A stretch of DNA of 64,000 nt from Nostoc cf. commune SO-36 (lineage in GTDB: Bacteria; Cyanobacteriota; Cyanobacteriia; Cyanobacteriales; Nostocaceae), in assembly GCF_023734775.1 (NCBI RefSeq), contig NZ_AP025732.1, forward strand, positions 3,230,501 through 3,294,500, given 5' to 3'. A model generated the notes under the pieces. The model was given only the letters and a program-made list of their open reading frames with translations, was not told where the DNA came from and ran no database searches. The translations under genes were made by a program, and so were the position numbers. This document shows positions 3,386-61,803 of this stretch, in pieces (positions within the stretch are counted from its first letter, which is position 1; the number at the start of each line of letters is the position of its first letter).

Positions 3386-4764
3386 ACTTTCTTAATAACC
3401 TAGCTCAAAATGATTGGCTTATCGGTTACAACAGCCATCAATTTAATCAAATATTTGAAGAATTATATTTAGAATTAACACAAATATCAGCGTGTGGAAC
3501 ACCACCAAAAATCATCTTAGCTGAACGTGAACCATTAAGGTTTCTAGCAAGTTTTATTGCTGCTTGTGCAGCTAATTGTCCAGTTTTTCTTTGTAACCCC
3601 GATTGGGGAACACAAGAATGGCAACAAGCCTTTGATTTAGTACAGCCAAATATTATCTTGGGAATAGGGAATAGGCAATGGGAAATAAGAAATAACGATA
3701 ATTACCAATGCTCAATTCCCAATGCCCCATGCCCACTGATTATGATTCCAACAGGTGGTTCATCGGGACAGATTAAATTTGCTATTCATACTTGGGAAAC
3801 TCTCACAGCATCAGTACAAGGATTTACAGAATACTTCCAACTAAAGCAAGTCAATTCTTTTTGCGTGTTACCGCTACATCACGTTAGCGGTTTAATGCAA
3901 TTTATCCGCTCTTTCACCACCGGAGGTAAACTGGCTATTCTGCCATTCAAAGCAGTAGAATCTGGTCAAATATTCAATATTAAACAATCAAAATTTTTCA
4001 TATCTTTAGTACCAACACAGTTACAACGCCTCCTGCAAAATCCAGAATTAACTGAATGGCTATCCCAATTTAATACAGTACTTTTAGGAGGTGCGCCAGC
4101 ATGGAACGAACTACTAGAAAAAGCCAGATTTCATCGCATCCGATTAGCACCTACTTATGGCATGACAGAAACCGCCTCTCAAATTGCCACCCTCAAACCA
4201 GATAATTTTCTAAACGGTAAAATTAGCAGTGGTCAAATCCTTCCCCATGCAAAAGTAACTATTCGCAATCAGCAAGGCGAGATTTTAAATTCCAATCAAA
4301 TCGGAAATATTACCATTCATGCTCAATCTTTAGCCCTTGGTTACTATCCTAAAAATAGAGAATATCAAACTTATTTTCAAGTAGATGATTTAGGCTTTTT
4401 AGACGAACAAGGACATTTAAATATTGTCGGACGTAACAGCGACAAAATTATTACAGGTGGCGAAAATATTTACCCATCAGAGATTGAATCAGCTATCCTA
4501 TCAACTCAAATGGTTACTGATATCTGTGTCATAGGCATTCCAGATAAACACTGGGGACAAGCCTTAACAGCGATTTACATTCCCAAAAAATCAGATATCT
4601 CTGCCTTAAAAATCCAAACCCTACTCAAAGACAAACTCAGTAAATTTAAAATTCCAAAATATTGGATTCCCCTGCAAAACTTACCCCGCAACTCCCAAGG
4701 TAAAATTAACCGTCAACAGTTACAGCAAATCGCCACAGAATTCCTGCAAAATTCCGTCAAATAA
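3370..4764 (+). CDS. menE: 2-succinylbenzoate-CoA ligase MenE
   Basis: An ANL-superfamily acyl-CoA synthetase (464 residues from the ATG at 3370; an in-frame GTG at 3355 is an alternative start). It activates o-succinylbenzoate with ATP and CoA. Adenylation motifs appear in order: [12 protein letters not shown] (phosphate loop), [38 protein letters not shown], and a C-terminal [10 protein letters not shown] containing the catalytic Lys. The gene overlaps menC by 16 bp. Just before the phosphate loop (residues about 97-123) is a stretch encoded by 'gggaataggcaatggg' and 'caattcccaatgccccatgccc' repeats, apparently another in-frame repeat insertion. The 3' end overlaps the convergent thioesterase gene by 8 bp. 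Confidence 0.92.
3658..3740. repeat. Short-repeat insertion inside menE
   Basis: The units gggaatagggaataggcaatggg (3660-3682) and caattcccaatgccccatgccc (3714-3735) are near complements, as in intergenic Nostoc repeats. The insert lies in frame directly upstream of the codons for the ATP-binding GGSSG loop. Confidence 0.7.
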
Positions 4765-5203
4765 CTTCTCTCGATCTTCTTCTCTCTGCGTCCTCTGCGT
4801 CTCTGCGGTTCGTCTCCAACCACTGAACTATCTCATCAGGCAATTCCTGCTTACTTCGACTACTTACATCAATACAAACATGGCGAGTAATAGCCTTAGC
4901 AACTACTACCTCGCCCACAGTAATTTCGTAAGTAATTTCAAACTTCTCAACACCTATCTTTTGGGGAATTAAACTAATCAGTAACTTGTCCCCTACAAAC
5001 ATAGGGCGCAAAAAATCAACATTAGCATGAACAATGGGAAAGCCCACAGACGGATTAGTAAAAAAATCTTTGAGATTAATACTTGATGCTTCTAAAGATT
5101 CTTCATAAGCTTCATGGCAAATACCCAAAACGTTAGCAAAATAAACTACCCCAGCAGCATCAGTATCTTGAAAGCGAACCGTGCGGTTATAAGTAAAAGA
5201 CAT
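4757..5203 (-). CDS. Hot-dog thioesterase, probable DHNA-CoA hydrolase
   Basis: A 148-residue hot-dog-fold acyl-CoA thioesterase of the 4-hydroxybenzoyl-CoA/DHNA-CoA type. The motif [20 protein letters not shown] near the N-terminus holds the catalytic Asp region. Its position beside menE fits hydrolysis of DHNA-CoA to DHNA, the step before MenA (established for the Synechocystis enzyme; inferred here). The last about 17 residues are Arg/Asp/Glu-rich ([12 protein letters not shown]) and are encoded by a 'ctctgcg' repeat. The natural C-terminus was probably shorter and has been extended by repeat insertion. The end overlaps menE tail to tail. Confidence 0.83.
4780..4813. repeat. 'ctctgcg' repeat forming the thioesterase C-terminus
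   Basis: A run of TCTCTGCGTCC/CTCTGCGTCTCTGCGG units, the same family seen at 20629-20655 and 45930-45976. Here it is translated on the minus strand as the C-terminal tail of the thioesterase. Confidence 0.75.
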
Positions 5204-5238
5204 TTTTGATAGTTGAATTACGAATTACGAATTAGTAA

Positions 5239-5697
5239 TTATGTTGACTCCAACGGCGAAACCTCGAAGTCATTAAACGAGCAAACATTGTAAGACGAAG
5301 CGGCTAAAGCCTTCACCAGCTTGCCGTTGAGAGTCAGCAAAGTAGCACCTACCTGCTGTGAAAGTGCAACATAAGAGCCATCATAGGCGGAGATTCCATA
5401 GTTTAGTGCGATCGCAACTGCATCCGCCATCAAATCAGCTGTGGAGACAACACGCAACGGAAAAGCTTTGAGACTAGCTAAATTCCCTTGAATCAGAGAA
5501 ACATCGTAACTACCTGCACGAGCATACTTCCACAAAACGTTTGCACACTCAATGTAAAACAGGTCAGGTACAAAGATTTCTGTCTGGGGATAGGTAAGGT
5601 GAGCAAACAGTTGATTAACCTTGCCTGTTAGCGGATCGGGAATAAATTGTTTAACCGCCACACTCGCATCCACGACGCATCTAAGAGGAATTGTCAT
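5239..5697 (-). CDS. PIN-domain toxin (VapC type)
   Basis: A 152-residue PIN-domain ribonuclease. The first acidic motif is VVDASVAVKQF at the N-terminus. Further acidic residues appear at ECANVLWKYA (about residue 50) and in SAYDGSYVALSQ (about residue 118). A predicted type II toxin that would cut RNA when free of its antitoxin. It overlaps the upstream antitoxin by 4 bp (ATGA), so the pair is translationally coupled. The exact RNA target is not predictable. Confidence 0.85.
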   Translation of the reverse strand: MTIPLRCVVDASVAVKQFIPDPLTGKVNQLFAHLTYPQTEIFVPDLFYIECANVLWKYARAGSYDVSLIQGNLASLKAFPLRVVSTADLMADAVAIALNYGISAYDGSYVALSQQVGATLLTLNGKLVKALAASSYNVCSFNDFEVSPLEST

Positions 5698-5960
5698 CTG
5701 TCCCGATCTTCTCTAATCATGGCAGTGCTATCAGGCCATTCGATATCATCTGGTAGCTGTTCACGGCGAAGACGAATCTCCTCTAGAAGTTTTGGGACAT
5801 TTTTCCGCTTTTCGTCTTCTGCTTGCTGTGCTTCAGTCTTCAAAGCTTGGTCTAACAGAGTTATAACTTGGGCGTTAATGGAACGGTGTTCAGATGCCGC
5901 TAACTCTTGCAGCTTTGCATACAAATCATCAGGTAAATTTCTTACATAAAGGGTAGCCAT
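5694..5960 (-). CDS. Ribbon-helix-helix antitoxin (FitA/VapB type)
   Basis: An 88-residue protein beginning MATLYVRNLPDDLYAKLQEL, a classic ribbon-helix-helix DNA-binding N-terminus (FitA/Arc-like). It is followed by HRSINAQVITLLDQAL and a charged C-terminal tail (EDEKRKNVPKLLEEIRLRRE) that would wrap the PIN toxin. It overlaps the toxin gene by 4 bp and is expected to autoregulate the operon. Assignment is by N-terminal motif and gene order. Confidence 0.86.
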   Translation of the reverse strand: MATLYVRNLPDDLYAKLQELAASEHRSINAQVITLLDQALKTEAQQAEDEKRKNVPKLLEEIRLRREQLPDDIEWPDSTAMIREDRDR

Positions 5961-6113
5961 CGCTTTACCTCAAAGTAGAATTTATCAAAATGATAGCATA
6001 ATGCAAGCATGAAGTGAGAGGAGCGATCGCCTTTGGTTTGTGGGTGCGATCGCTATTAAATATTTCAATAAACTGCTACACTAATTATTTATTGAAATAT
6101 TTTTGGATAAAAT

Positions 6114-7673
6114 ATGGGCAGTAATATCAAACAAGCCCTTTCCTTGACTGATCATGTTCGGTTAGGAACAACCTCTTCCTCTCCATTTTTAGGTTCACCA
6201 ACGTTTGACGAAGTACCTTTTCATGTACGTGAAGGACGTATGCCAGCTTTGGGAACTTACGTAGTTATCGAACGAGATAAAGATGAGATAGTTCATTACG
6301 GACGTATTATCGAGGGAACAGAGGATAACCCTCGTGCTAACCCATCAACACTGCAACAGAATCAGGCATATCAGGTAGGTTCAGATAAAACTAGACCAGG
6401 CGATCGCTCTCCACATGTTACCCGTGTGATGACTATTGAGGTTTTGGGTGAAATACATCTTGATGGTAATCATCAGATCACTATTAAAGAACCCAGTCTT
6501 TTAGCACAAACCGGTCAGGGAGTATATGAAATACCTGCTGACAGAATACCGCAGCTGCTTAATACTCCTGACACGCAAGAAGATGGTTTTTACTTAGGTG
6601 AAATAGAATCAGGTGGTAAAAGTGCTAATTTTATTTTGCCAATGGAAGCGATCGCCCGACACTTGGCAGTTGTGGGAAAAACAGGTGTAGGAAAAAGTTA
6701 TGCCACAGGCGTTTTGATAGAAGAGTTAGTTAGGCATGGCATACCTATTATTGCTTTCGATGTTTTGGGAGATGTAATTCATGCTACTGAAGATTTGGGG
6801 GGTCTAAATTTTCGAGCGGGGGTAAATTTCCGTGTTCCTTACTCAGTAATTGGGCTTAGTGAGTTTTTGGGCTTTGTTCCTAATCTCACATCTGATCAAT
6901 CAGAATTAGTATCTATGGCTTATGATTCTGTATTTACTGAAGCACTTCAAAGTCTAGAAAAAAGTGGCAAAGTAAATATCCAAATTGAAGAATTATTAGA
7001 GGAAATCCAAGGGGCTGCTACTGAATTTGGACAAGGAGCAGTGGGAGGGAGAGCCGCACGTAAAGTATCAACGGTATTCAAGCGTAATCCACTGCTGACA
7101 AGCGGAACAGAGTCTTGGCTAGAGGAATTTGCTCAACAACCAATAACTAATGTTTTTGTTGGACATTTGAGCCAACAGCAACGAAATTTGATAGTTGGGG
7201 CATCAGTCAGACTATTGCAAGCATTGAGAAAGCGCGATCGCATTCCACCTTTTGTCTTTGTACTGGATGAAGCGCACTTTTTCTTACCAGCAGGAGGACA
7301 GACAACAGCATCAACTCAAGTAATCCGAGAGATGATTCGTACTGCTCGACATGATGCAATTGGAGTTACATTAATTACTCAAAGTCCTGCATCTATGGAT
7401 AAGCAAGTATTATTAACTTGCAATACTCGTCTAGTTTTTGCCCTAGATCCAGATGACATGAAGTTAGTATCTGGCACTTTGGGGGGTATTTCCGATGAAA
7501 TGATTTCTCGTATACCTAAATTACCAAAAGGTACAGCAATCATGTCATCAAGTATGGATATAATACGCCATCCAGCACAGATACGTATTCGTAAACGCGA
7601 AACTCGTGAAGGTGCCCCAACACCGAACATTGCAGAGGAAGTGAAAAAATGGCGGCAGCAGAGGATATCTTAA
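6114..7673 (+). CDS. HerA-type hexameric ATPase/helicase
   Basis: A 519-residue protein with an N-terminal HAS-barrel-like region (residues about 1-150). The Walker A motif is VVGKTGVGKSYAT (about 185-197), Walker B is FVFVLDEAHFFLP (about 380-392), and a sensor-like segment ITQSPASMDK follows. This is the FtsK/HerA (DUF87) arrangement. HerA pumps DNA through a hexamer and works with NurA nuclease in end resection or, in some lineages, anti-phage defence. Its 3' end overlaps the downstream NurA-like gene by 25 bp, strong evidence for a partnership. The specific role in this organism is unknown. Confidence 0.88.
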   Translation: MGSNIKQALSLTDHVRLGTTSSSPFLGSPTFDEVPFHVREGRMPALGTYVVIERDKDEIVHYGRIIEGTEDNPRANPSTLQQNQAYQVGSDKTRPGDRSPHVTRVMTIEVLGEIHLDGNHQITIKEPSLLAQTGQGVYEIPADRIPQLLNTPDTQEDGFYLGEIESGGKSANFILPMEAIARHLAVVGKTGVGKSYATGVLIEELVRHGIPIIAFDVLGDVIHATEDLGGLNFRAGVNFRVPYSVIGLSEFLGFVPNLTSDQSELVSMAYDSVFTEALQSLEKSGKVNIQIEELLEEIQGAATEFGQGAVGGRAARKVSTVFKRNPLLTSGTESWLEEFAQQPITNVFVGHLSQQQRNLIVGASVRLLQALRKRDRIPPFVFVLDEAHFFLPAGGQTTASTQVIREMIRTARHDAIGVTLITQSPASMDKQVLLTCNTRLVFALDPDDMKLVSGTLGGISDEMISRIPKLPKGTAIMSSSMDIIRHPAQIRIRKRETREGAPTPNIAEEVKKWRQQRIS

Positions 7674-9820
7674 CTCAGAAAATTTTAGATTTATTACTAA
7701 AACAACCAGAAGGTTTAGAGGTTGACGAAATAATCAACCATTTACAAGCAAAAGATAGTGATATTTCTCCCAGAGGTGTACGCAACCTTTTAAACCAACT
7801 GGTAAAGGGAGAAAAACTGATCAAGCGCAAGCGTCAAGGTCAAGGACGAGGGAAACCACCCTATGCATACTTTAACCTCAAAACTGTATCTCAATATGTA
7901 AATCCTTTTCAGGATATACCAGGTGTAGATAGTGCCAAATCTCACTTTGTAGCTAAAACAGAAATTGAAAAAGAGCAAATAAATCCACAAGAACGGGAAC
8001 GTCAAAAGCAATGGCGGACAGTTTTAGAAAGAATCGCTGCTAATAATCTACTAGCTGATACTTATGCAAAAGTAATTATTGATTACGCATCAGAAATAGC
8101 TATACAAAACCCTGTAGAGCTTGTTGTCAACATGGCACATTGGGTAGTTAATGACCTTAACCAGTTAGGGGAAGAAATTGAATGTAAATTGCAAAAATCA
8201 GAAACAGTAGAAGCTCAAGTTTTGGTTAGAAGATTAGATGAAAGATTAACATGGGCAAGAAACAATTTGCAAAAATTTTGGCGGCTTGACCGTTCACGAG
8301 ATGAAATAGAAGGCATTTTAGACTTACCTTCACAAGCCAAAAATTTTTTCCGTGATGGAATACGCGCTCAATTTAATGAAAAAGCAGCACGAGATAGATT
8401 AAAAAATCGAATTATAGGTGATAGGTTAATCGATGAAACAACTCCTCCGGTAAACCAACATAAAGCAGCAGTTGGAACAGATGCTTCCATAGCAAAAATT
8501 TTTCTTAATCACACTTCCGGTAGCTTTATTCCTCCAGATCCCGTCATAGTGACTACTTCTGCTGCTGCAATGGTAGTTGATGACAATAATCCTACAAAAC
8601 AGGAATATTTAGATTTTGATATTTCTCCTGATGGATTACAGGAATATGAAGAATATAATGCTGCCGCTAAAGGTTTAGTACTATCTCCAAATCTAATGCG
8701 AACACTTGGTACTGACACCTTTAAAAGAGCGCAAACAGCGGCCTTAGAACTGCGTCAATATCATCAAGATTACCGTGTTGCAACCAGAACTACTGAATGG
8801 CGGCCTATGGGTAATTTACCGGATTTAGAGATTAATCCAAAAGTAACCCTCATTTTTCGAGATGGTCGTGTGTTTCCTGTTGTACATAGAATTAACTTCT
8901 ATGAAGCTGATGGCTTATATGGTGATATTGTACGTAATCAAATCGCAGAATTTGCTGGAGTTATTCATAATACCCTGTTAAATCCTCTTGGTGAAATTGT
9001 TTATGGTTCGGCAGTAAAAAATCCAGAGCTTTCATGGTTATCACCTTTAGTATTTTGGTATTTGTATAACAGAAAAATTCAGGAACAGGGTAAATTTATA
9101 GTTAATGCCGATGATGTTTATAAAGCGCCTTTTGTCGATACATCAGTATCTCATCTTTTATTTCTAGGTTTAGCTAACCATTCTAGTGAGTTTAATAAAC
9201 AGAAACACTTTATAAGCTGTCGAGTTCTCAGACGATTTTCAGATATTGCTTTTGTAGATGATATATTACCCATAATCATTTCAAAAGATGAGCAACCTGA
9301 GCCTTTGAATGAAAATGATATAGAGGACTGGCAAACTTTTATTGCTCAACGCCTTGCTAGAAAAAAAGCGAATGGCGAAGAAAATAGACTAGAAGAAGAT
9401 GACTATACACCATTTATTTATATATGTCAGAAAGTAGGTGTACTAATGTGTTACGCTGCCCCTACTTCTGCTTATGAAATAATAGTTAATGGTGATTCTG
9501 GTGGAAGTGGACACTTTTTAATTCCTCGTCTTGAAGTTGCTATTAATTTAGAAAAGCAAAACTTACAAACTTACCAAAAAACACTAGATAAGATGCTGTC
9601 ATGGTTAGCGGCAGGACGTTGGGAACGCGATCATGGACATACACAAACAGGTTTTGATGAAGGAGAAACAGAAAGTCGTTATCCTGTTCTTGTACCCGAT
9701 GTGACACTCTATGCTGATGAAGCAGCAAAATTTGCCCGTAATAAATTGAGTGACGAGGTAGAGGAGAAAGTCAGAAATCTAATTGCTGACTTGAAAAAGC
9801 ATTTGGCAGGTGGACGCTGA
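7649..9820 (+). CDS. NurA-domain nuclease with N-terminal winged helix
   Basis: A 723-residue protein. Residues about 1-75 look like a winged helix-turn-helix (SPRGVRNLLNQLVKGEKLIK), followed by a helical linker. A NurA-type nuclease core starts near AAVGTDASIAKIFL (about 270), where the Asp of the GTDAS motif corresponds to a metal ligand of NurA. Further conserved blocks follow (VTLIFRDGRVFPVVHRINFY; SHLLFLGLANHSS). It is translationally coupled to the HerA gene. It is much longer than archaeal NurA (about 350-400 residues), so the extra N-terminal part is a lineage addition. Nuclease activity is inferred, not shown. Confidence 0.8.
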   Translation: MAAAEDILTQKILDLLLKQPEGLEVDEIINHLQAKDSDISPRGVRNLLNQLVKGEKLIKRKRQGQGRGKPPYAYFNLKTVSQYVNPFQDIPGVDSAKSHFVAKTEIEKEQINPQERERQKQWRTVLERIAANNLLADTYAKVIIDYASEIAIQNPVELVVNMAHWVVNDLNQLGEEIECKLQKSETVEAQVLVRRLDERLTWARNNLQKFWRLDRSRDEIEGILDLPSQAKNFFRDGIRAQFNEKAARDRLKNRIIGDRLIDETTPPVNQHKAAVGTDASIAKIFLNHTSGSFIPPDPVIVTTSAAAMVVDDNNPTKQEYLDFDISPDGLQEYEEYNAAAKGLVLSPNLMRTLGTDTFKRAQTAALELRQYHQDYRVATRTTEWRPMGNLPDLEINPKVTLIFRDGRVFPVVHRINFYEADGLYGDIVRNQIAEFAGVIHNTLLNPLGEIVYGSAVKNPELSWLSPLVFWYLYNRKIQEQGKFIVNADDVYKAPFVDTSVSHLLFLGLANHSSEFNKQKHFISCRVLRRFSDIAFVDDILPIIISKDEQPEPLNENDIEDWQTFIAQRLARKKANGEENRLEEDDYTPFIYICQKVGVLMCYAAPTSAYEIIVNGDSGGSGHFLIPRLEVAINLEKQNLQTYQKTLDKMLSWLAAGRWERDHGHTQTGFDEGETESRYPVLVPDVTLYADEAAKFARNKLSDEVEEKVRNLIADLKKHLAGGR

Positions 9821-39330: not shown

Positions 39331-39362
39331 GCTGCTTCCCTTGTGGAGGCGGCTATTTTTTT
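39331..39362 (+). terminator. Rho-independent terminator of groESL
   Basis: A 9-bp stem GCTGCTTCC / GGAGGCGGC (two G-U pairs) with loop CTTGT, followed by TATTTTTTT. It lies 28 bp after the groL stop codon. Confidence 0.85.
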
Positions 39363-39384
39363 GTGCCAAAAGAAGAGGAAAAGG

Positions 39385-40188
39385 GTGAGTTACGACAACG
39401 CTTGTAAATATTTAGCTGAACAGTACCCAGCCGAGTTTGTGCGTTGGTTGCTTGGGGTAGAGGTACAACAAATTGAAGTTTTAAAAACGGAACTCACGCT
39501 TGAACCAATTCGCGCGGATTCTGTGACATTTTTGCAAGCGGCTAACCAAATTTTGCACATTGAATTTCAAATTTTGACGAAATCTAATCCGGCGCTTAAT
39601 TTCCGAATGCTCGATTATTCTGTGAGGTTGAAGCGCCAATACCGTTGTCCTGTAGTGCAAGTGCTAATCTTTTTGCAAGAAACTACTAACGAAATGGCTT
39701 TTACTGAAGAATATCGGGACAACACGACGATTCACCAATATCAAGTTGTTCGTCTTTGGGAGCAAGATTCAACACTATTTTTAGTTAATCCGGCGCTGTT
39801 ACCTTTAGCAAGTTTGACGTGAACTGACTCGCCACAAACTTTACTGGCACAAGTGGCTGAACAAGTCGCTACAATTCCAGATAGGGAGGAGCGACAAAAT
39901 ATCGCGGGTTGTGTAGAAATTCTGGCGGGTTTGCGGTTTGAAAAGGATTTGGTTCGACAATTTTTACGGGAAGATATTATGAAAGAGTCTGTAATTTATC
40001 AAGATATCGTTCAAAAGGAAGCCTTTAAATTGATAAGTCGTCAGCTTAAACGGCGCTTTGGTGATATTGATGGATCATTAGTTGAGCAGGTTCGGAATTT
40101 ATCTGCCGAACAGTTAGAGGATTTGGGAGAGGCGTTGTTGGATTTTTCGGAAGTTGCTGATTTGGTAGCTTGGTTAGAGCAGCAGTAG
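39385..40188 (+). pseudogene. Rpn-type nuclease (DUF4351), interrupted by a TGA
   Basis: One frame from GTG 39385 to 40188 (about 267 codons) is broken only by TGA at 39820-39822. Upstream: SYDNACKYLAEQYPAEFVRW and LQAANQILHIEFQILTKSNP, the PD-(D/E)XK-like core of Rpn/PDDEXK transposase-like nucleases. Downstream: TDSPQTLLAQVAEQVATIPD and the DUF4351 C-terminus RQLKRRFGDIDGSLVEQV. A CGA-to-TGA transition would explain the stop. No indel is needed, so this is a point nonsense mutation or a base-call error. These families are numerous and often decay. Confidence 0.82.
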
Positions 40189-48538: not shown

Positions 48539-49536
48539 TCACCCAAACATTAAAATAGGGTAAATACAGTATTTCCTAAAATAAATACAAAAAAAAGTCA
48601 TAATAATCCGCCGTAGTAATGTGGAAAGATTCATGACTAGAAAATTTATAGCAATTGCTGTTTCAGAAGTATTAGAAAGTTTGGTCATCAATCGAGCAAG
48701 GCTATATCTTCTTTTTGCTTCTCCAAATTTCCCTTCAATACAATTACGGTCTCTCTCGTCTAATTGTGTCTGTTTTTTGGTTTCTTTACTGATATTTTTT
48801 GGAGGTCGTCCTAATGGTATACCACTAATTCTAATTCCTCTTTCTTTACACCATTTTCTATTGTCTTTGGTTCGATAAATCTGGTCTACATGTATAGATT
48901 CTGGATAGAACCCTGTTGCTAGTTTAAAAGCTTCTACCTGCGCTTTTAAGTCACTTGATTCATTAAAATTATCCCAACTAATTCGGTCTAAAAATACATA
49001 ACCTTCATAACAACTAGCTGATAATTTGGCTCCAAATTCTACTGATGAACCAGCTTTTCCCCTAATGATTGGACGCACATGAGGTTGTGTTAAACTCACT
49101 ATTCTATCGTCAACACGAGAAAGGCTATTCTCATACATGAATAACTGTTGCCGACATACTTCATTTACGACTAATAGTATTTTATATTTTTGGGCACTCA
49201 GCCACTCCAGCTTGCCTCCAGAGGCTAATAGCCTATCTATATATGATAGATTTCTTTTCAGATATTGTAGTTGTCTCTTTATTACTTTTCTTCTTTGTTT
49301 TTTCGATGGTCGTCGCTTTTTCGCTACGTCTAGATATTCTTTTCTAGCTGTATTTCTATAAGTTCTGGGCTTTTTCTTTTCGTTGTCATCTAATTCTTCA
49401 TACAGAATATCTATTATTTCTTCGGTTTGCTCTCTCGCTTCGTTCAATAATCCTAAATCTGTCGGATATTTAATATCTGCTGGTACACAAGTTGCATCTA
49501 ATTTTAATTTACCTTGATTTCTTTCTTCATTTATTT
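48539..49536 (-). CDS. IS transposase, catalytic frame
   Basis: The frame is open from the A-run (KLKLDATCVPADIKYPTDLG, then LLNEAREQTEEIID) to 48539. The first in-frame ATG lies only at 49447. Catalytic blocks: KLDATCVPADI (first Asp), SIHVDQIYRTKDNRKWCKER (second Asp region) and NCIEGKFGEAKRRYSLARL (Glu). A -1 slip from the upstream ORF would yield a transposase of about 480 residues. Confidence 0.86.
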
Positions 49537-49995
49537 TTTCTTCTCCTCCACTGCTAATAACTTTTTTTCATTTACTTCTTCATTTTCTTTCTCTCGACTA
49601 TTCTTGACCATCCTCTGATTCATTCTATTAACTAATCCAACATCTATTCTTTGTCTAAAATGGACGAGCATTGATGCTTCAAATGGTGCTTCATTACTAT
49701 ACTTATTCAACCCTATAAAATACTGCAAATAAGGATTTTCTCTTATTTGTTCCACTGTCTCCCTATCACTTAATCCCAATCTTTCCTTGATTATTAAAGC
49801 TCCGATCGCTGTCCGAAAGGACTTTGCCGGTGCCCCCATTTCAATCGTAAATTGTTGAGCATATTCATCTTCAAATTCTGACCAAGGAATTAAATTAGCC
49901 ATCATGACCCATCTATTATCCTCTGCCAATTTCCCCTCAAATGGCAGTTCAAACTTTTCTATTGGGGTGGGTGGGGTCTCAATTTTTCTATACAT
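49531..49995 (-). CDS. IS transposase, N-terminal (DUF772) frame
   Basis: A 154-residue ORF. WSEFEDEYAQQFTIEMGAPA, then IIKERLGLSDRETVEQIREN and APFEASMLVHFRQRID, is the DUF772 DNA-binding region of IS1182/IS5-type transposases. It ends at AAG AAA AAA TAA. The A6 run there is a plausible -1 slippage site into the catalytic frame, so this is likely a programmed frameshift. Confidence 0.88.
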   Translation of the reverse strand: MYRKIETPPTPIEKFELPFEGKLAEDNRWVMMANLIPWSEFEDEYAQQFTIEMGAPAKSFRTAIGALIIKERLGLSDRETVEQIRENPYLQYFIGLNKYSNEAPFEASMLVHFRQRIDVGLVNRMNQRMVKNSREKENEEVNEKKLLAVEEKKK

Positions 49996-50435: not shown

Positions 50436-52688
50436 TCAACAGCTAAGTTTTTGTTTATCGATCTTAACTTCTTCGAGGCGAGATTTCGCCCACTCATAAT
50501 TTGGTTCTATGTTGATTCCTTCATTGAAGTTCTCTTCAGCTTGTGTTAGCAAATTACATGCTGTTTGACGGTCTAACTCGTTCTCCTGGGCATGGTAAGA
50601 CAGATGGTAAGTTTGCCCCAGTCCGCCGTAAGCCGTGTACTGTCTACTGTTTTCCTGGATGAGTTGTGAGAAACATAAAATGGCTTTCTCATAATTGTTG
50701 TCGTCACGATATTGAAGGCACCAATTACCTTGTGAGGCTAAATATTTATTCGTTTGATCGTTAAGAGCTTGTTCGGTTTTTCGAATTTGTTTTTGAGCCT
50801 CATCCTTTGCTGTTCGAGCCTCATTCTCTGCTGTTCGAGCCTTCTTCTCTGCTGTTTGAGCCTTCTCCTCTGCTGTTTGAGCCTGTTGTTCCTGTTCTTT
50901 GGCAAACAGACCTATTCCTAAAGCTACAACGCAAATCATAAACAGTCCAACAAAGCCACCTCTAATGATTCGACGGGCTTTCTTGTGTGCTTTTTCTAAT
51001 ACCTGTTTCTCACGTTCAACTTCTCGCCTATCAAATGTCTGACTATCACGTAAAAAACGATCATCCAGATTGCTCAAGCCTTTATCTGTTGACCACTCCA
51101 AAGCATCTTGCAACGCCTGTCCACGCAACAGGTAAGATTCCTCCTGATAACCGGAAGCTTCCCAGTTGCTAAAAGCTTCCGCATAAGGACGCAGTTTAGC
51201 TAGTTCCTTCTTTACCCAGTCGAGTGCGAACACAGACTGGTAAATGCGGTTATAAACTCGTAATTTACCCATCTGTTGAACCACTAAACCTGTTAGCCTT
51301 AAGTCTATTTGTTCAGCACTATTATCAGTAGCAATTTCACCTTGTTGCAAAATTTGCTGATATAGTCCCAGTAGACGGCTTACGCGTTGTTCCTTCCTCC
51401 ATATGCGATCGCGTATTGTCCGCAAATGCGCCTGTTCGTCCTGAGCTTCCCAGTTTTCGATAATGCGCGATTTCACCAGTTTATCAACACTCAATCGCTG
51501 ATTATCTGTTTGAATAAGTTGGCAAATTCTCTGGGTAAGAAACGGTTGTCCACCAGTCCATTGCAAAATTTCTTGCAGCGCCTCTTTGGGATTTTTAAAC
51601 TTGCTTGCCAATCCTATAGCTAACGGTTTGGCTTCTTCCAACTGAAAGCCTTTAAGTTCACCAATATTAAATGGCGTGCGCTTTTTGTCTTGAACAAAAT
51701 CAGAAGGAGTCGCCACCCCCAATAGTGTGAAGGTGATACGTTTATATTTTAGATAATCGGCACGCTGGTTATAAAAATTGCGGATCAAAGCAAAAAAATC
51801 GTCAGTGAGAAACTTCAGACTAAGAACGCTATCAATCTCATCAATAAAGATGACAATGTTTTGTGGAATTTCTACTAACAGCACCTCATCGATAAATTCA
51901 CCCAAACGCTGAACTGGAGAAATCTGAGAGCGATCGCTCCACCAACTGCTAAAGTTAAACTTTACTGAAAGCTGGAAACTTCGCTCCAAACGCCTAACTA
52001 TACCCGCATACCATTGCTCTGCTGAAAGTTGGTGACTGCCAGTTTCTGTTAAATCAATCACAGCACAGGCAATTCCCTCTGCTTGCAATTTTTGCATGGT
52101 TCTTACTCGCAAGCTAGATTTACCCATCTGCCGAGAGTTCAATACGTAGCAGAAATTGCCAGCTTTTAATTCATCATATAAATCTTTATCTGCCTGTCGT
52201 TCTACATAAGTGGCAGCATTGGCTGGCAAAGTTCCCCCGGCTTGATATTCATAAACCAAGTTTTGTGCTGGGTTTGCTGGCTGTACTGGAGGCAATTGTT
52301 GTGATGGGTTTGGTGCTGGGTTGGTTGGTTGATTCTGAACAGGTTCTTGTGCATTAAGATTGTGGGTTAGCTGGTGGAAATATTCACGATACAAATTACA
52401 GCGAAGAATCACACCATTGTTTTCCCAGGCAATCAACCCCATACTCTTTAATTTGAATGCCAGTATTGGCTCTAATTGTACTGGGTTGGTTGCGCTAACA
52501 ATTTGTGCGATCGCATCTATTAGTTCTGGATGCTGTTTTAAATTCCACCAATGTCGTCTTAAATGGTCACTAAATATTCCCGCATCTGTGGGAGCAATTT
52601 TGAGTAACTGCTCCAATGTAGTTTGTTGTCGAGAAATATGATAAAGCCCCACCCTTAACAAATACGGGTGTCCTCCCAACATTGCCAT
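50436..52688 (-). CDS. PF14516-type ATPase with TM, coiled coil and TPR (C-terminal part of the conflict protein)
   Basis: A 750-residue ORF, probably the downstream part of one large protein broken by a 7-bp duplication at 52689-52702. Residues 1-100 ([18 protein letters not shown]) complete the preceding ATPase lid. About 145-480 is a second AAA-like (PF14516) ATPase: Walker [14 protein letters not shown], Walker [16 protein letters not shown] helix follows ([20 protein letters not shown]), then a heptad-like coiled coil ([20 protein letters not shown]). TPR-like repeats ([20 protein letters not shown]) end it. The TM suggests membrane anchoring. As written it could start only at its own ATG. 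Confidence 0.8.
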
Positions 52689-54135
52689 TAACTGCTAACT
52701 GCTCAACCTGGGTAATATTCCAATTGAGAGCGTATCGCCTTGCCAAATCCAACACTTGCTCGCGGTTAAATTCTGGCAGTTCAATGGGTAAACCGACATT
52801 AAACGGCGATTGATTTACATCCATATTGATGTAGGGTTCAGTAGAATGGACTACTACTAGCCGCAGTTTCTTCCAAATATCCCGACTTTTTGCATCTTCG
52901 TGCCAAGCCCGTAACAGCCCAAAAAAGTCACTAGCAATTTTGGACTGTTGAAAAACGCAATCTACCTCATCTAATGCCAATACCAATGGTTGGTTGATTG
53001 AAGATAACAAATACTGCTCAAAATAAGATGTGCAGTTCTCTTTGCTACCAAACGTCTTGTCCCAGTGTTCAGCTAAACGATTTTGTAATCCTAATCTCCG
53101 ACCGACGCTAGCACAAAACCAACGTAAAAATTCATCTATGTCAGTAAATACTTTACTATCTGCTAGTTGAAAGCTTAATGAAGCAGTGCTATAGCCTTGC
53201 TGCCGTGCATAATGTAGAATCCGCGCCATTAAAGAAGTTTTACCCATCTGCCGTGCTGCTTTAATGCGAATTAAAGCACCCAGCTTCAAAATTTCTTTAT
53301 AGCAGTCAGATTCGATGGGAGGACGTTCCACATAAAATGTAGAAGCCAAATCCATCTGTCCTTCAGGTAATTCTGGTTCTGCTGCTGGCAGAGGAGGACT
53401 TTGTAAGTTTTCTAGTTCAGGTAATATGGTTGGCAATTCTGCCTCTAGAGGCTCATCAAAGGTTTCGCTTTCATTAGCGTTGGCTAAGAGTTTTAATAAA
53501 TCTTGTAAAATCAGGCGAGTATCTGCATCTGACTTCCACTCTCGCTGTTGAATCTCATTTAAATAGCCACGTAACTCATAATTAAGCGGCGCACTTAAAG
53601 GGAAGTTAACGCGGATTGGCAAAATCCCCGGCTTACGATTAGAACGTAAATCCCGCAATCGTTTCACCTGCTGTACTTCCCGTGTCACCATCTCACTGTT
53701 TGCTGATTTCTCAGACAACAGCAGAAAAAAATAATCGCAACGCTGTAGTTCTCTATCGATACGTTGCGACCATTGTTCTCCCCATAGAATGCTTTCCTTT
53801 GCCATGAATGGGTCATGTCCAGCATTTTTGAGAGTATCGTAAAACTGCTTTGCTAAACTTATGTCTGGTTCTTGGCTGTGATAACTGATAAAAATCCTGG
53901 CGCTTTGAGTAGCTGGTTTCATTTCGTAGAGATTTACTTGTTGCTTAACCCATTGAGGTAAGGCTTCTAACACCACTTTTGTAGGAATAATAAAAGCAGC
54001 TTTGACATCTTGGCGCTGTTTTTCTGCCGCTACAGCCATTCCCACTACACGCTGTAAATTCTGATCCCAAACTGGTGTACCACTAAAACCTTCTTCTAGA
54101 CGATAGCTAGTTTCACTCTTAACTTCAATCTGCAC
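52570..54135 (-). CDS. Trypsin C-terminus - TIR - ATPase (middle part of the conflict protein)
   Basis: The 521-residue frame begins with the end of a trypsin domain ([20 protein letters not shown], with the catalytic Ser in GFSGTP). A TIR domain follows ([35 protein letters not shown], with a candidate catalytic Glu in VTREVQQ). A PF14516-type ATPase comes last (Walker [15 protein letters not shown], Walker [13 protein letters not shown]). The N-terminal half of the trypsin lies in another frame (lesion near 54149-54151). The C-terminal 30 residues ([18 protein letters not shown]) are out of frame after the 7-bp duplication. TIR domains of this type often cleave NAD+ or signal in defence. 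Confidence 0.82.
52689..52702. repeat. Tandem 7-bp duplication TAACTGC x2 in the conflict gene
   Basis: TAACTGCTAACTGC on the plus strand (GCAGTTAGCAGTTA in the gene). With one copy removed, VEQL joins [18 protein letters not shown] in frame, restoring a continuous ATPase. With two copies the gene is split. A slippage-prone site. Confidence 0.9.
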
Positions 54136-54572
54136 CCAACTTTTAGCATTTGCTCCTGTAATACACCCTCAGTCCAGACGCCATTGGGTTTATCTTTGGG
54201 AAACCCAAAAGCTAAAAACTCATGTTTCCATACGTTCTCACACGGAAGTAATTCCACTGGTTTAGCTTTGTTGGGGGAAGGCTTCTCCAACTGTAAGACA
54301 GCTATATCTTCTTGAGATTCAGACGGATTGGAACTCACGGGTAGCCAAAAAACAACTGTGGCTGTTAGTTTCTGTTTAGAATCTACTATAGGAAAGTCAC
54401 ACCTAACTGTACCCGTTGGCATTTCAGAAGTACCAGCAGGAATTTGCAAAGCCAAAGCCACAACATGAGAGCAAGTAAGGATATATTTATCGGAAACTAA
54501 GAAGCCTGAGCCAATTACGTTGCCATTATTAGAGTAAATTCTGACAACGGATAATTCTAATTTTTGGCTCAT
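54096..54572 (-). CDS. Trypsin-like protease domain, N-terminal part of the conflict protein
   Basis: From ATG 54572 (MSQKLELSVVRIYSNNGNVI) the frame gives a trypsin N-terminus: the catalytic His in ILTCSHVV (about residue 36) and the catalytic Asp in SQEDIAVLQL. The catalytic Ser appears only in the next frame (GFSGTP). Adding one A in the A-run at 54149-54151 joins VLQEQ to [14 protein letters not shown]. The ATG overlaps the upstream stop as ATGA, so this start is preferred over ATG 54593. If both lesions are repaired, the protein is about 1,376 residues. Confidence 0.8.
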   Translation of the reverse strand: MSQKLELSVVRIYSNNGNVIGSGFLVSDKYILTCSHVVALALQIPAGTSEMPTGTVRCDFPIVDSKQKLTATVVFWLPVSSNPSESQEDIAVLQLEKPSPNKAKPVELLPCENVWKHEFLAFGFPKDKPNGVWTEGVLQEQMLKVGCRLKLRVKLAIV

Positions 54573-54919
54573 TTTTGGATCTCCCGCTTCCACTTGAGGG
54601 TAATTTCGTAGTTGATTTCACCAGTGCCAGAAGCTACAACAGCTTTAAATTCAGAGCTAAATTTGATCCCAAACTTGACTTCTATTTCGTCCGCAGGCTG
54701 ATGGAGACTACCAAGTTTGGTGAGTATGGCGTTAGCTACAGGCTTAATTGTTTCCAGGGCGGATTCAAAAGACTTTGTAGACCTTTGAGTTATCTGCTCA
54801 CGAATACCGATGCGATCGTCGGTAATGCCAATGGGAGAGTCAGTCAGTCCTGGCTCATTCACTTCCACAAGAATTATTGAGTTGTCGTTCTCTGAAGGAA
54901 ATTCAACGATGCGTTTCAC
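54569..54919 (-). CDS. Trypsin-co-occurring protein (Trypco1-like)
   Basis: A 116-residue protein: MKRIVEFPSENDNSIILVEV, a helical centre (STKSFESALETIKPVANAIL; TKLGSLHQPADEIEVKFGIK), then AVVASGTGEINYEITLKWKR. This is the pattern of CU044_2847/Trypco1 proteins that sit beside trypsin-containing conflict proteins. It is coupled to the trypsin gene by a 4-bp ATGA overlap. It may gate the protease or report the activating signal; that role is inferred from the family context. Confidence 0.82.
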   Translation of the reverse strand: MKRIVEFPSENDNSIILVEVNEPGLTDSPIGITDDRIGIREQITQRSTKSFESALETIKPVANAILTKLGSLHQPADEIEVKFGIKFSSEFKAVVASGTGEINYEITLKWKREIQK

Positions 54920-55265: not shown

Positions 55266-56411
55266 ATGACTTCACAATCTTCTCACTCTGACAAAATTCT
55301 GGTTGTCGATGATTCTCCTGATAACGTGTTTTTGATCAAAACTATTTTGGAGGAAGAAGGTTACACAGTTAGCACCGCAGAAAATGGGATTTCGGCTTTG
55401 GCAGAATTAAAAGCTTCTCCTTGTGACTTGGTTCTGCTGGATCTGATGATGCCAGATATGGATGGGTACGAAGTCACCAAGCACATTCGCGGTGATATGA
55501 AATTGCCGCAATACATCCCCATACTGCTGATTACTGCCCACGATGCGCCCAACGTCGCCCACGGTTTAGACTTGGGTGCTGATGATTTTATCCGCAAACC
55601 TGTAACAGTAGATGAATTGCTGGCACGAGTGCGATCGCTCCTACGTTTGAAGCATAGTATGGATGAACGTGATGAAATTGCCCGCCAGCGAGAAGATTTT
55701 GTCTCCCGCCTCACCCACGATTTACGCACTCCTTTAGTAGCTGCCGATCGCATGTTAATGCTATTTCAACAAGGTGCATTGGGAACATTATCAACGCAAA
55801 TGCAGGAAGTAATCGCCATCATGGCGCGTAGCAATATCAACCTGCTTTCTATGGTCAATACCTTATTGGAAGTTTATCGTTTTGAAGCGGGTCGCAAAAG
55901 TTTGGCCTTTCAACCAGTTAATCTGGGCCAATTGCTAGATGAAGTGACTGGAGAATTGTCACCCTTAGCTCAAGATAAAACACTGTCCCTAAATTTGGAA
56001 ATTACTGAAGAGTCAAGCACAAACACAGTCATGGGCGATCGCTTGGAGTTGCATCGTCTATTTACTAATCTCATAGGGAATGCGATCAAATTTACCGAAG
56101 CTGGATCTATTACTATTCGTTTTACTTCTCAAGGCCAGTTCGATAAAAGCAATCAATCTCAGTTCTCTGAAAAATCCAATTCCGTTGACTACATTAGAAT
56201 TGAGATAGCGGATACTGGCCCAGGTATTCCCCCTGAAGAACAAGCCACCATCTTTGAACGATTTCGCCAAGGCAGTCATAAAAGTTCTGGTAGTGGCTTA
56301 GGGCTGTACCTTGCTCGTCGAATTGTCGAGGCACATCAAGGTATTATTCTGCTTAATTCTGAGTTGGGCAAAGGTAGTGTATTTATTGTGCTTCTACCCA
56401 CCAAAGCATGA
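55266..56411 (+). CDS. Hybrid response regulator - histidine kinase
   Basis: A 381-residue protein. The receiver comes first: ILVVDDSPDNVFLI, phospho-Asp in LVLLDLMMPDMDGY, and Lys in FIRKPVTVDELL. A HisKA domain follows (FVSRLTHDLRTPLVAADRML, phospho-His about residue 155). The ATPase comes last: N box HRLFTNLIGNAIKF, G1 IADTGPGIPPEEQ, G2 GSGLGLYLARRIV. No TM or sensor domain, so it is cytoplasmic and takes input through its receiver or a partner. Divergent from the conflict operon; a functional link is unproven. Confidence 0.92.
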   Translation: MTSQSSHSDKILVVDDSPDNVFLIKTILEEEGYTVSTAENGISALAELKASPCDLVLLDLMMPDMDGYEVTKHIRGDMKLPQYIPILLITAHDAPNVAHGLDLGADDFIRKPVTVDELLARVRSLLRLKHSMDERDEIARQREDFVSRLTHDLRTPLVAADRMLMLFQQGALGTLSTQMQEVIAIMARSNINLLSMVNTLLEVYRFEAGRKSLAFQPVNLGQLLDEVTGELSPLAQDKTLSLNLEITEESSTNTVMGDRLELHRLFTNLIGNAIKFTEAGSITIRFTSQGQFDKSNQSQFSEKSNSVDYIRIEIADTGPGIPPEEQATIFERFRQGSHKSSGSGLGLYLARRIVEAHQGIILLNSELGKGSVFIVLLPTKA

Positions 56412-59937: not shown

Positions 59938-61803
59938 ATGGCAAATTACTGGGCGATCGCGATTGGCATCAATCAATATCAGTTATTTCAACCTTTAAGT
60001 TTTGCCCAAGCAGATGCTGAGGCACTAGAAGATTTTTTGGTGGCAGAGGCAGGTTTTGTTCCCAACCACCGTCTAGTCATGACAGATACTTCGCCGCCGA
60101 TTGGGAATAGGTCAACTTACCCGACGAAGGAAAATATTTTGCTGCTACTTGAGGATTTAGCAGCAACAAGTTGGCAACCGGAAGACTATCTGTGGTTATT
60201 CTTTAGCGGTTATGGAGTCAACTACAAGGGCAAAGATTATTTAATGCCAGTAGAGGGCAACCCCGAACTAGTACAAGAGACTGGCATAGAATTGCGATCG
60301 CTAATGCAAAGTCTCCAACTTGCTGACTTGAATGTATTGCTACTACTCGATATCAACCGCGCTTTTGGCACTCAAGCGGATGCTCCCGTTGGTGAAGAAA
60401 CAATAGAATTAGCCCAAGAACTACAACTTGCGACAATTCTTTCTTGTCAACCAGAACAATTTTCCCACGAAAGTAGCGAATTAGGTCACGGATTCTTTAC
60501 AGCAGCTTTGTTAGAAGCTTTACGTTCTGGCAATGGCAACAACTTGGCAGATTTAGAAAGCTACCTAAGCTTGATCGTGCCAAAATTATGTCACCATCAC
60601 TGGCGTCCTATCCAAAACCCTGCCACGATCATCCCATCAAGGCAGCAAGTAATCTTGCCAAAATTGGCAATGGAAAGTGATTTTCAATCAGAAGCGGTGA
60701 TTTATCCCGAAGAATCTTTTGCTGTTGCCCTTGCAGCTCCTCCCCTCGACGATTACCCTAAAACTTCAGCAGAACGAGGTAAATGGGGAGAGGCTAATGT
60801 GAAATCCTCCCAACAGGTGAAGGCCCAAAAAGTGCAGCAAGGGAGCGGCATAATCTCGCAGCCAATGGCGGAAACTTCTTTGGGAGCGAATACCAGAGGA
60901 AGATTTATTCCCAATTCCTCCAAAGGTTATATCTCTCGATTGCCATCAAATCAGCCAAGCCTCCCTTTTTGGAAACAGTTTATCTTGTGGGGCGGAGGCA
61001 GCTTACTGGTAGCAGGTTTAATCGCTGTAGTTTTTCTGCGTAATCAAGAAACTTTTAGAATTAAGCAAATATCAAGTACATCACCTAATGCTACTGTTAG
61101 CGATCGCCAGATTGTCGAGAATTTACCAAGCAATCGCACTCCAACAGTTAGACTCAAAAACCAATCTAGCGCCCAAATAAACTCTAGTTCCGAGTCGAAA
61201 AAGCGGAATCAAGCAGTATTAGACTTGGCAAAAATGTCGCTCAGACAAACTCAGGCTAGCGATTTGAGCATGGCGATCGCAACAGCCCGGAAAATTCGAC
61301 CCGGTGAACCACTGTACGAACAAGCTCAGGAGAATATTAAGATTTGGAGCCAGATGATTTTAGATTTAGCAGAAGGTCGTGCTAAACAAAGACAGTATGC
61401 TAGCGCTATTGCCGCCGCTCGATTAATCACCAAAGATGAGGCTCCTTATGCAAAAGCACAAGCAGCAATTAACCTGTGGCGGTTAGAGGGCAAGCAGTAT
61501 GTGAGTAACAAAACTCTTTTAGATGCAGCTAATGCCTTAATTAAGCCTGGACAGGCATCTACCTACAATCGAGCGATCGAAGTTGCCAAGAAAGTGCCAG
61601 CAGGTGAACCAGGCTTTGATAGTGCCCAAAAGTCGATCAATAAATGGAGTGAGAAAATTTTAGACTTGGCAAAGCGTCGCGCCGCCGAGGGAGAACGTAA
61701 TGCCGCAATTGCCACCGCAGCTTTAGTGCCAGAGGAGACAACAGCCTACGAAGATGCTCAGGATGCGATTCAAAAATGGCAAAAGAATATAGTAAAAAAA
61801 TAG
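59938..61803 (+). CDS. Pseudo-orthocaspase (caspase fold without His/Cys) with TM and repeats
   Basis: A 621-residue protein. Residues about 1-235 are a p20 caspase fold: NYWAIAIGINQYQLFQPLSF, then LFFSGYGVNYKGKDYLMPVE, where the catalytic His of the usual FSGHG is Tyr. LLLLDINRAFG follows, where the Cys of DCCHS is Asn. A disordered linker leads to a TM helix (FILWGGGSLLVAGLIAVVFL, about 350-369) and three or more alpha-helical repeats (AIATARKIRPGEPLYEQAQE; AIAAARLITKDEAPYAKAQA; AIEVAKKVPAGEPGFDSAQK). It is probably catalytically dead, perhaps an adaptor. Inactive YS/YN orthocaspases are known in cyanobacteria. Confidence 0.85.
   Translation: MANYWAIAIGINQYQLFQPLSFAQADAEALEDFLVAEAGFVPNHRLVMTDTSPPIGNRSTYPTKENILLLLEDLAATSWQPEDYLWLFFSGYGVNYKGKDYLMPVEGNPELVQETGIELRSLMQSLQLADLNVLLLLDINRAFGTQADAPVGEETIELAQELQLATILSCQPEQFSHESSELGHGFFTAALLEALRSGNGNNLADLESYLSLIVPKLCHHHWRPIQNPATIIPSRQQVILPKLAMESDFQSEAVIYPEESFAVALAAPPLDDYPKTSAERGKWGEANVKSSQQVKAQKVQQGSGIISQPMAETSLGANTRGRFIPNSSKGYISRLPSNQPSLPFWKQFILWGGGSLLVAGLIAVVFLRNQETFRIKQISSTSPNATVSDRQIVENLPSNRTPTVRLKNQSSAQINSSSESKKRNQAVLDLAKMSLRQTQASDLSMAIATARKIRPGEPLYEQAQENIKIWSQMILDLAEGRAKQRQYASAIAAARLITKDEAPYAKAQAAINLWRLEGKQYVSNKTLLDAANALIKPGQASTYNRAIEVAKKVPAGEPGFDSAQKSINKWSEKILDLAKRRAAEGERNAAIATAALVPEETTAYEDAQDAIQKWQKNIVKK

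Follow-up and report, generated by a model that had tools for sequence, protein, structure and literature searches.

A broken, naturally fused ATPase pair in Nostoc cf. commune SO-36 as a putative membrane receptor/executor system with exchangeable ends

What kind of protein is built when a trypsin, a TIR domain and two ATPases follow one another behind a small Trypco1 gene, and what would such a protein do? The question is raised by a locus of Nostoc cf. commune SO-36 that lies in a stretch of 64,000 nucleotides (contig NZ_AP025732.1, positions 3,230,501 to 3,294,500), called the window throughout. A sequence-only reading had described the locus as a conflict system in which a Trypco1-like gene is coupled by ATGA to a frame that encodes, across three segments, a trypsin, a TIR domain, two PF14516-type ATPases, a transmembrane (TM) helix, a coiled coil and TPR-like repeats. 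The comparison with relatives reported here suggests, with a probability of roughly 0.6, that the long gene of the window is a naturally fused and now decaying form of a cyanobacterial two-component membrane receptor/executor, whose role in conflict is inferred.

The order in the window is Trypco1 / trypsin-TIR-AAA_35-AAA_35-TM-coiled coil-weak TPR, spread over the following features:

54569..54919, minus strand: Trypco1 gene, 116 amino acids (aa), start codon GTG; Pfam PF19493, 1.6e-22
54096..54593, minus strand: long gene, frame 1, the N-terminal trypsin part, with catalytic His and Asp motifs present
54100..54160 (approximate), minus strand: first frame break, within the trypsin domain
52570..54135, minus strand: long gene, frame 2, the end of the trypsin with the catalytic Ser, TIR, and the front two thirds of the first AAA_35
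52689..52703, minus strand: second frame break, within the first ATPase, at AAA_35 profile position 226
50436..52688, minus strand: long gene, frame 3, the remaining first AAA_35, the second AAA_35, TM helix, coiled-coil-like stretch and TPR-like C-terminus
50901..50957 (approximate), minus strand: TM helix by hydropathy scan, residues 578-596 of frame 3

Most parts of the earlier description are borne out. The stop codon of the Trypco1 gene overlaps the start of the long gene (ATGA at 54572-54569), and the ATG at 54572 is the likely start, since homologues begin at that methionine. A 36-sequence alignment was made for the window Trypco1, and relatives with 96% and 90% identity to it occur. 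Pfam hidden Markov models identify Trypsin_2 (PF13365, 1.4e-10) and Trypsin (PF00089, 2.9e-9) in frame 1, and TIR_2 (4.1e-18; 66.5 bits against a curated cut-off of 28) and AAA_35 (PF14516, 4.9e-107, profile 1-226) in frame 2. Frame 3 continues the AAA_35 profile at 226-331 and then holds the second AAA_35 (3.6e-74 for the whole frame in two stretches); the scores are 358 bits for the front part of the first ATPase and 250 bits for frame 3 with its two stretches, against a curated cut-off of 27. Hydropathy supports the TM helix, before which lysine and arginine (K/R) are commoner than after it. The C-terminal end fares less well: TPR_11 is matched at 2.7e-4, under its curated cut-off, which is the weak point of the domain order, and the coiled coil is called from repetitive charged sequence alone, without a coiled-coil program. 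Searches of the PDB gave no credible relative of Trypco1. A profile search with the ATPase gave archaeal ORC2 (E = 0.11) and, in RecA, short matches at the Walker motif; kinship with RecA was rejected, because the best of these stretches spans just 36 residues about that motif, in RecA chains that are fusions.

A single gene, twice broken in frame, accounts for the three frames, and its architecture recurs. Seven intact homologues (P0001-P0007), which come from the best 120 of 6,032 matches to the Scytonema protein L001 (1,178 aa), are 1,362-1,482 aa long and carry trypsin, TIR and AAA_35 in the window order, and the predicted length of the repaired window protein, about 1,376 residues, is in line with them. 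All seven were aligned with the window, and a rescan of L001 and four of the seven found two AAA_35 stretches in every one. Because intact relatives share the order, the domain order of the window is a real, recurring architecture, and a chance fusion as its origin is rejected. L001 itself lacks trypsin and is a natural fusion of both ATPases. On its contig (L052), a Trypco1 remnant of 59 aa (2825-3004, plus strand) lies directly upstream of the TIR-AAA35-AAA35 gene (2980-6516, plus strand). The protease module and its Trypco1 partner were apparently lost together there.

Frame 2 leaves the alignment with the seven homologues near 52,700, at the second break, which coincides with an exact 7-bp tandem duplication; such duplications occur in 40 of 2000 random 70-bp segments of this sequence. 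Three residues behind TPFNIG of the second ATPase, kept in 8/8 aligned relatives, are absent from the window. With two breaks and this loss, the window copy is probably a decaying allele, and assembly error could still account for the frame breaks; the genome of the strain is 99.98% complete in 5 contigs. The ratio of nonsynonymous to synonymous substitution rates (dN/dS) between the window and the L052 gene (82-87% identical), a pairwise value that takes in selection acting on L052, is 0.27-0.29 in the core and 0.68 in the C-terminal part. Gene A of L004 and L100 and gene B of L063 and L069, the two genes being defined below, are likewise broken or shortened. An IS5-family transposase in two frames (48539-49995, minus strand) adjoins the 3' end of the broken gene.

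Two ATPases in tandem with a membrane anchor had been taken for an unusual scaffold. Sequence comparison instead identifies them as the fused form of an ordinary two-gene pair, in which gene A consists of an effector end and AAA_35, and gene B of AAA_35, usually a membrane helix, and a variable end. Fifty-five loci around relatives, mostly of one family, were taken: 49 with TIR (L052-L100), drawn from among the matches listed, and six without it. A B-type ATPase comes after the A-type one, or in L052 is fused to it, in 46 of the 49 loci with TIR; gene B is short or split in three of these (L063, L069 and L072). The exceptions are L100 together with L080 and L085, whose contigs stop 1.1-1.4 kb past gene A. 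Paralogues in the genome of the strain itself are paired too (L107, L109 and, in reverse order, L108), L110 being a lone B type. The parts therefore occur together, as a single gene or two neighbouring ones with Trypco1 beside them, and are not separate unlinked genes.

The A and B ATPases form separate subfamilies, since their PF14516 score ranges differ (about 400-524 bits for A types and about 87-130 bits for B types among the full-length domains scanned). The first (AAA1) and second (AAA2) ATPases have correlated pairwise distances (r = 0.893, 50 pairs, 0 of 2000 permutations as high), although linkage and common descent alone would give such a correlation. The 50 pairs comprise 39 of the 54 loci L053-L106, L052, L107-L109 and P0001-P0007; L063, L069, L072, L080, L085, L088, L089, L095, L097-L102 and L106 were omitted, being truncated, cut by a contig end or not entered. 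The Walker A Lys is present in 51/51 sequences of both ATPases, and the Walker B Asp and Glu in 49/51 and 50/51 of the A type and in 51/51 and 50/51 of the B type; both are present in the window. The TIR-AAA_35 piece of the window is matched at 1e-30 in 205 of 217 family genomes, mostly via the ATPase alone, and PF14516 at 1e-20 in 88 of 292 genomes across the phylum.

The effector end of gene A is trypsin-TIR, CHAT-TIR, TIR or trypsin, depending on the locus. In the 49 TIR loci, gene A opens with trypsin in 18, with a CHAT-like peptidase in 14 (called from BLAST matches to the N-termini of proteins already annotated with PF12770) and with TIR itself or an unassigned stretch in 17; a 29-residue "trypsin" match of TIR-only genes was discarded as the linker that closes the query (residues 167-195). 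Trypsin joins TIR at the effector end in relatives, which does not support the sensing role suggested earlier for Trypco1 and trypsin. A small gene lies upstream of all 18 trypsin-TIR A genes, at a spacing from a 17-nt overlap to a 109-nt gap, and is Trypco1 in 18/18 by a profile built from 36 relatives of the window gene and eight of the 18 genes later found. Those eight were identified independently by Pfam, and two upstream genes from CHAT loci were not Trypco1. The same profile found no Trypco1 at the other 37 loci save the 59-aa remnant of L052. Trypco1 also stands at 5/5 trypsin-AAA_35 genes where no TIR was found. The trypsin triad is intact in 25/25, and the pieces in the window retain its motifs. 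L073 and L058 have ATPases 95% and 98% identical and matching C-termini, with trypsin in L058 alone. At L057 (3048-5690, plus strand), a pair carries two trypsins, one at the front of A and one past the membrane helix of B. A second Trypco1-trypsin pair of the same genome as the window lies at L019 (G000:C1, around 1937249), its Trypco1 being 60% identical to that of the window. In the A/B pair of L109 (G000:C2:202000-212500; 6015-7418 and 8710-9180, minus strand), gene A opens with the motif NLQxAQFxGGLxNADTVxAxQIGGN, which is repeated by a nearby 156-aa gene and which may resemble the amyloid-type signalling motifs common to receptor and effector. Gene B of this pair carries GUN4.

The opposite end of the pair is exchanged between relatives as well. 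P0001 and P0002 are 97% identical in AAA1 and 90% in AAA2, vs 24% past the TM helix. Among 191 protein pairs whose AAA2 is at least 70% identical, pairs that are not independent of one another, the C-termini have no BLAST match in 133; L107 and L108, with no C-terminus over 40 aa, are in none of these pairs. A scan with a plain hydropathy threshold places one hydrophobic helix at most 120 residues past the second ATPase in 35 of 50 proteins. For 28 of these 35 helices, K/R is higher on the ATPase side than on the far side; for 3 it is lower there, and for 4 the two sides are equal. This suggests that the C-terminus of B lies outside the membrane. Twenty-five B proteins were scanned with Pfam, with the following C-termini:

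L095, L099, L146, L155: Peripla_BP_6
L060, L062, L074: PG_binding_1
L054, 1311-5639, minus strand: WD40, then Amidase_3 (N-acetylmuramoyl-alanine amidase, 3.9e-42)
L055, L061, L065, L199: WD40
L057: a second trypsin
L053, L068: TPR
L059, L070: HisKA-HATPase
L090: GUN4
L056: 3-keto-disaccharide hydrolase, weak match

L058, L067, L071, L075, L180 and L196 showed only ATPase families at the Pfam thresholds used. The Amidase_3 end of L054 is possibly envelope-acting. The variable, mostly membrane-separated C-terminus appears to be a better candidate for the sensor than the trypsin.

Where this exchange takes place can be followed from one neighbour of the locus:

55266..56411, plus strand: Response_reg-HisKA-HATPase hybrid kinase (Pfam), divergent, 346 bp from Trypco1

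Of 208 family genomes, 177 contain a strong match to the hybrid kinase gene, and at no fewer than 17 of the 49 other TIR loci the coordinates show the AAA_35 cassette next to it and divergent from it. Sixty further kinase regions, a non-random set from which the 17 loci already in the TIR set and G141 (contig end) were left out, show the cassette beside the kinase in seven and no match in the stretch examined in 53, among which L179 and L183, short because of contig ends, are counted; the kinase was accordingly rejected as an obligate partner. Five of the seven cassettes have Trypco1 and trypsin with no TIR found, one is B-type only (L199) and one is a pair with another N-terminus; two of the seven positives were foreseeable (L201, on the Scytonema contig of L004, and L196). 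The 22 C-termini from the kinase address fall into seven BLAST clusters. Because one kinase address carries many end types, module exchange appears to happen in place, with neighbours and ATPase cores staying. A counterpart of the hybrid kinase is also seen at L004 (2353-3450, minus strand); from genome to genome, the slot divergent to this kinase holds differing AAA_35 cassettes or none.

Built on the observed domains, catalytic and Walker residues, A-B linkage or fusion, Trypco1-trypsin coupling, end-exchange and topology bias, the proposed mechanism would run as follows. Before its AAA_35, protein A would bear a single effector domain or a pair: a trypsin partnered by Trypco1 or a CHAT caspase-like peptidase, with TIR in addition or instead. 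Protein B would place behind its paralogous AAA_35, mostly by way of one membrane helix, an exchangeable and probably external sensing module. Upon detection of an envelope or periplasmic signal by this outer module, the B ATPase would change state jointly with the A ATPase, the Walker motifs being intact in both, and the A/B complex would oligomerise. Oligomerisation would gather and switch on the trypsin, which Trypco1 may hold or license, and the TIR NADase. The outcome would be cell damage or death, possibly in an anti-phage role, or a signalling step. A broader proposal falls somewhat short of even odds and is put forward tentatively: such loci may encode undescribed, widespread transmembrane paired receptors with two obligate AAA_35 ATPases, an executor A (protease and/or TIR), a sensor B and cartridge-like ends at a fixed address, so that one core would couple many extracytoplasmic signals (solutes, peptidoglycan and others) to proteolysis and NAD+ cleavage. 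These receptors would form a membrane-spanning counterpart of the plant paired NLRs with integrated sensor domains.

Several elements of the locus are known from other systems. Trypco1 and Trypco2 have been named as trypsin neighbours in MoxR-vWA systems (PMC7159879, Kaur et al. 2020), and Trypco1 with trypsin and TIR has been reported near such systems (PMC10907252). The VMAP/MoxR-vWA systems resemble the present loci in having Trypco1 beside trypsin, a trypsin, caspase-like or TIR domain at the N-terminus of the core protein, variable effector or sensor ends, and multicellular cyanobacteria among their hosts (PMC7159879). In contrast, no MoxR, vWA or VMAP was found here in the flanking frames scanned, two Walker-intact AAA_35 domains taking their place, and trypsin and TIR share one chain; exchangeable modules follow, mostly behind a membrane helix. 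Membership in this group (VMAP, iSTAND, TERNS3) was rejected, because Pfam found neither MoxR nor vWA in the 14 frames scanned around the locus, from 37.7 to 61.8 kb of the window (ten at E up to 1e-5 and four more, the 159-aa frame 39343-39822 being left out). AAA_35 may correspond to the MNS Npun2340/2341 clade, whose double name may stand for the A/B pair. NTPases of the MNS clade, as the "Npun2340/2341 family", have been mentioned in passing among proteins that start with a TIR, trypsin, caspase or EAD domain (PMC8195603). However, that mention concerns fusions to the FGS (C-type lectin-like) domain, and the relevant passages contain no A/B pair, no end-exchange at one locus and no solute-binding modules (PMC8195603).

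The nearest experimentally tested analogue found is LypABC of Caulobacter crescentus, in which LypA is a CARD-trypsin-ATPase protein and LypB an Orc1-like ATPase-TPR protein, and in which lysis needs the protease residues and residues of both ATP sites (PMC13236601). As in genes A and B, a trypsin-ATPase protein is paired with an ATPase-repeat protein (PMC13236601). However, LypA lacks the conserved Walker residues that both ATPases keep here, and TIR, Trypco1, the TM helix and swapped C-termini lie outside the system as described there (PMC13236601). No CARD or death fold was matched by Pfam in the window or the rescanned relatives, at the level of sequence profiles. In plant paired NLR receptors, an executor with a TIR or CC (coiled-coil) end is accompanied by an adjacent sensor NLR with exchangeable integrated domains. 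The A/B pairs share with them the pairing of executor and sensor with an exchangeable sensor part; demonstrated homology is confined to the P-loop and TIR, however, and the variable end here is mostly past a membrane helix. Thoeris was rejected, since ThsB_TIR scores 18.7 bits, under its cut-off of 21.2, and no ThsA-type gene occurs in the flanking frames scanned; weak PADLOC and NCBIfam matches to Thoeris, Avs1b and LmuA are partial or far under the cut-offs. A PHROGs scan gave a single weak match, of unknown function, to a relative. No description of an A/B pair with exchanged ends was found among the literature matches listed, mainly at the level of title and abstract and with most subscription papers outside their scope.

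A number of points weigh against a membrane receptor/executor. The shared descent behind the distance correlation, the dependence among the C-terminus pairs and the plain threshold of the hydropathy scan have been given above. A single TM helix just past AAA2 is absent from 15 of the 50 proteins, and no helix over the threshold is found in P0006, counted outside those 50; not all B proteins can therefore be single-pass receptors. HisKA and GUN4 modules are normally cytosolic. The candidate TIR Glu, present in 44/45 with the window included, occupies a position that is presumably catalytic by comparison with TIR motifs, and a PDB sequence search with the TIR gave no credible match, an apparent relationship to lysozyme being rejected as a 20-residue repeat artefact. 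The window copy is broken and probably inactive. Finally, the neighbours are housekeeping genes (urease, chaperonin, aldehyde dehydrogenase) with no defence island.

Conflict, as the sequence-only reading proposed, gains from the occurrence of Trypco1 and trypsin in such systems (PMC7159879), from the 18/18 and 5/5 coupling and from the conserved catalytic residues, and loses from the failure to find MoxR and vWA in the 14 frames. Those frames hold no other known defence gene except a caspase-family gene about 5 kb from the cassette, so the label "conflict system" rests on domain content. The caspase-family protein (Peptidase_C14, 5.4e-17) has 621 aa and is encoded at 59938-61803, plus strand.

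The explanation that survives best beside a membrane receptor/executor, although it is unlikely, is a Trypco/trypsin NTP-dependent anti-invader system in which molecules of phages or other invaders would be sensed by the C-terminus on the cytoplasmic side, the TM helix merely anchoring the complex. Trypco1, trypsin, caspase-like domains and TIR are hallmarks of such systems (PMC7159879, PMC8195603). WD40 and TPR repeats often serve as sensors inside cells. However, the K/R bias places the C-terminus outside in 28 of the 35 proteins with a helix, Peripla_BP_6, PG_binding_1 and Amidase_3 are envelope-side modules, and the failure to find MoxR or vWA in the 14 frames counts here as well. Next, and with a still poorer chance, comes a regulatory receptor that kills nothing, in which the protease would free a factor and TIR would make a nucleotide signal on environmental cues, perhaps together with the hybrid kinase. 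The recurrent address beside that kinase, the fusion of HisKA-HATPase to B in L059 and L070, the solute-binding-type modules and GUN4 in L090 are in its favour. However, the kinase can do without the cassette, as the 53 empty regions indicate, and patchy presence, several broken copies and end-exchange resemble conflict genes more. A non-functional relic, a mere pseudogene assembled by chance fusion, is very improbable: the two frame breaks and three-residue loss of the window and the further broken copies in relatives fit it, but seven homologues that keep this order unbroken over their full length, the core dN/dS of 0.27-0.29 against L052 and the residues conserved across relatives oppose it, so that it may describe the window copy and not the family.

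The window copy is broken; what points to function comes from its intact relatives. If the receptor/executor reading is true, filamentous cyanobacteria hold NLR-like alarms that face outward through the membrane, with a constant ATPase pair and interchangeable sensors. Nature would thereby have assembled, at a single locus, a set of receptor chimaeras in which to study how a STAND-type switch is coupled to a protease. These would also bear on the effect of Trypco1 on trypsin and on the origin of exchangeable sensors in NLR-like immunity.

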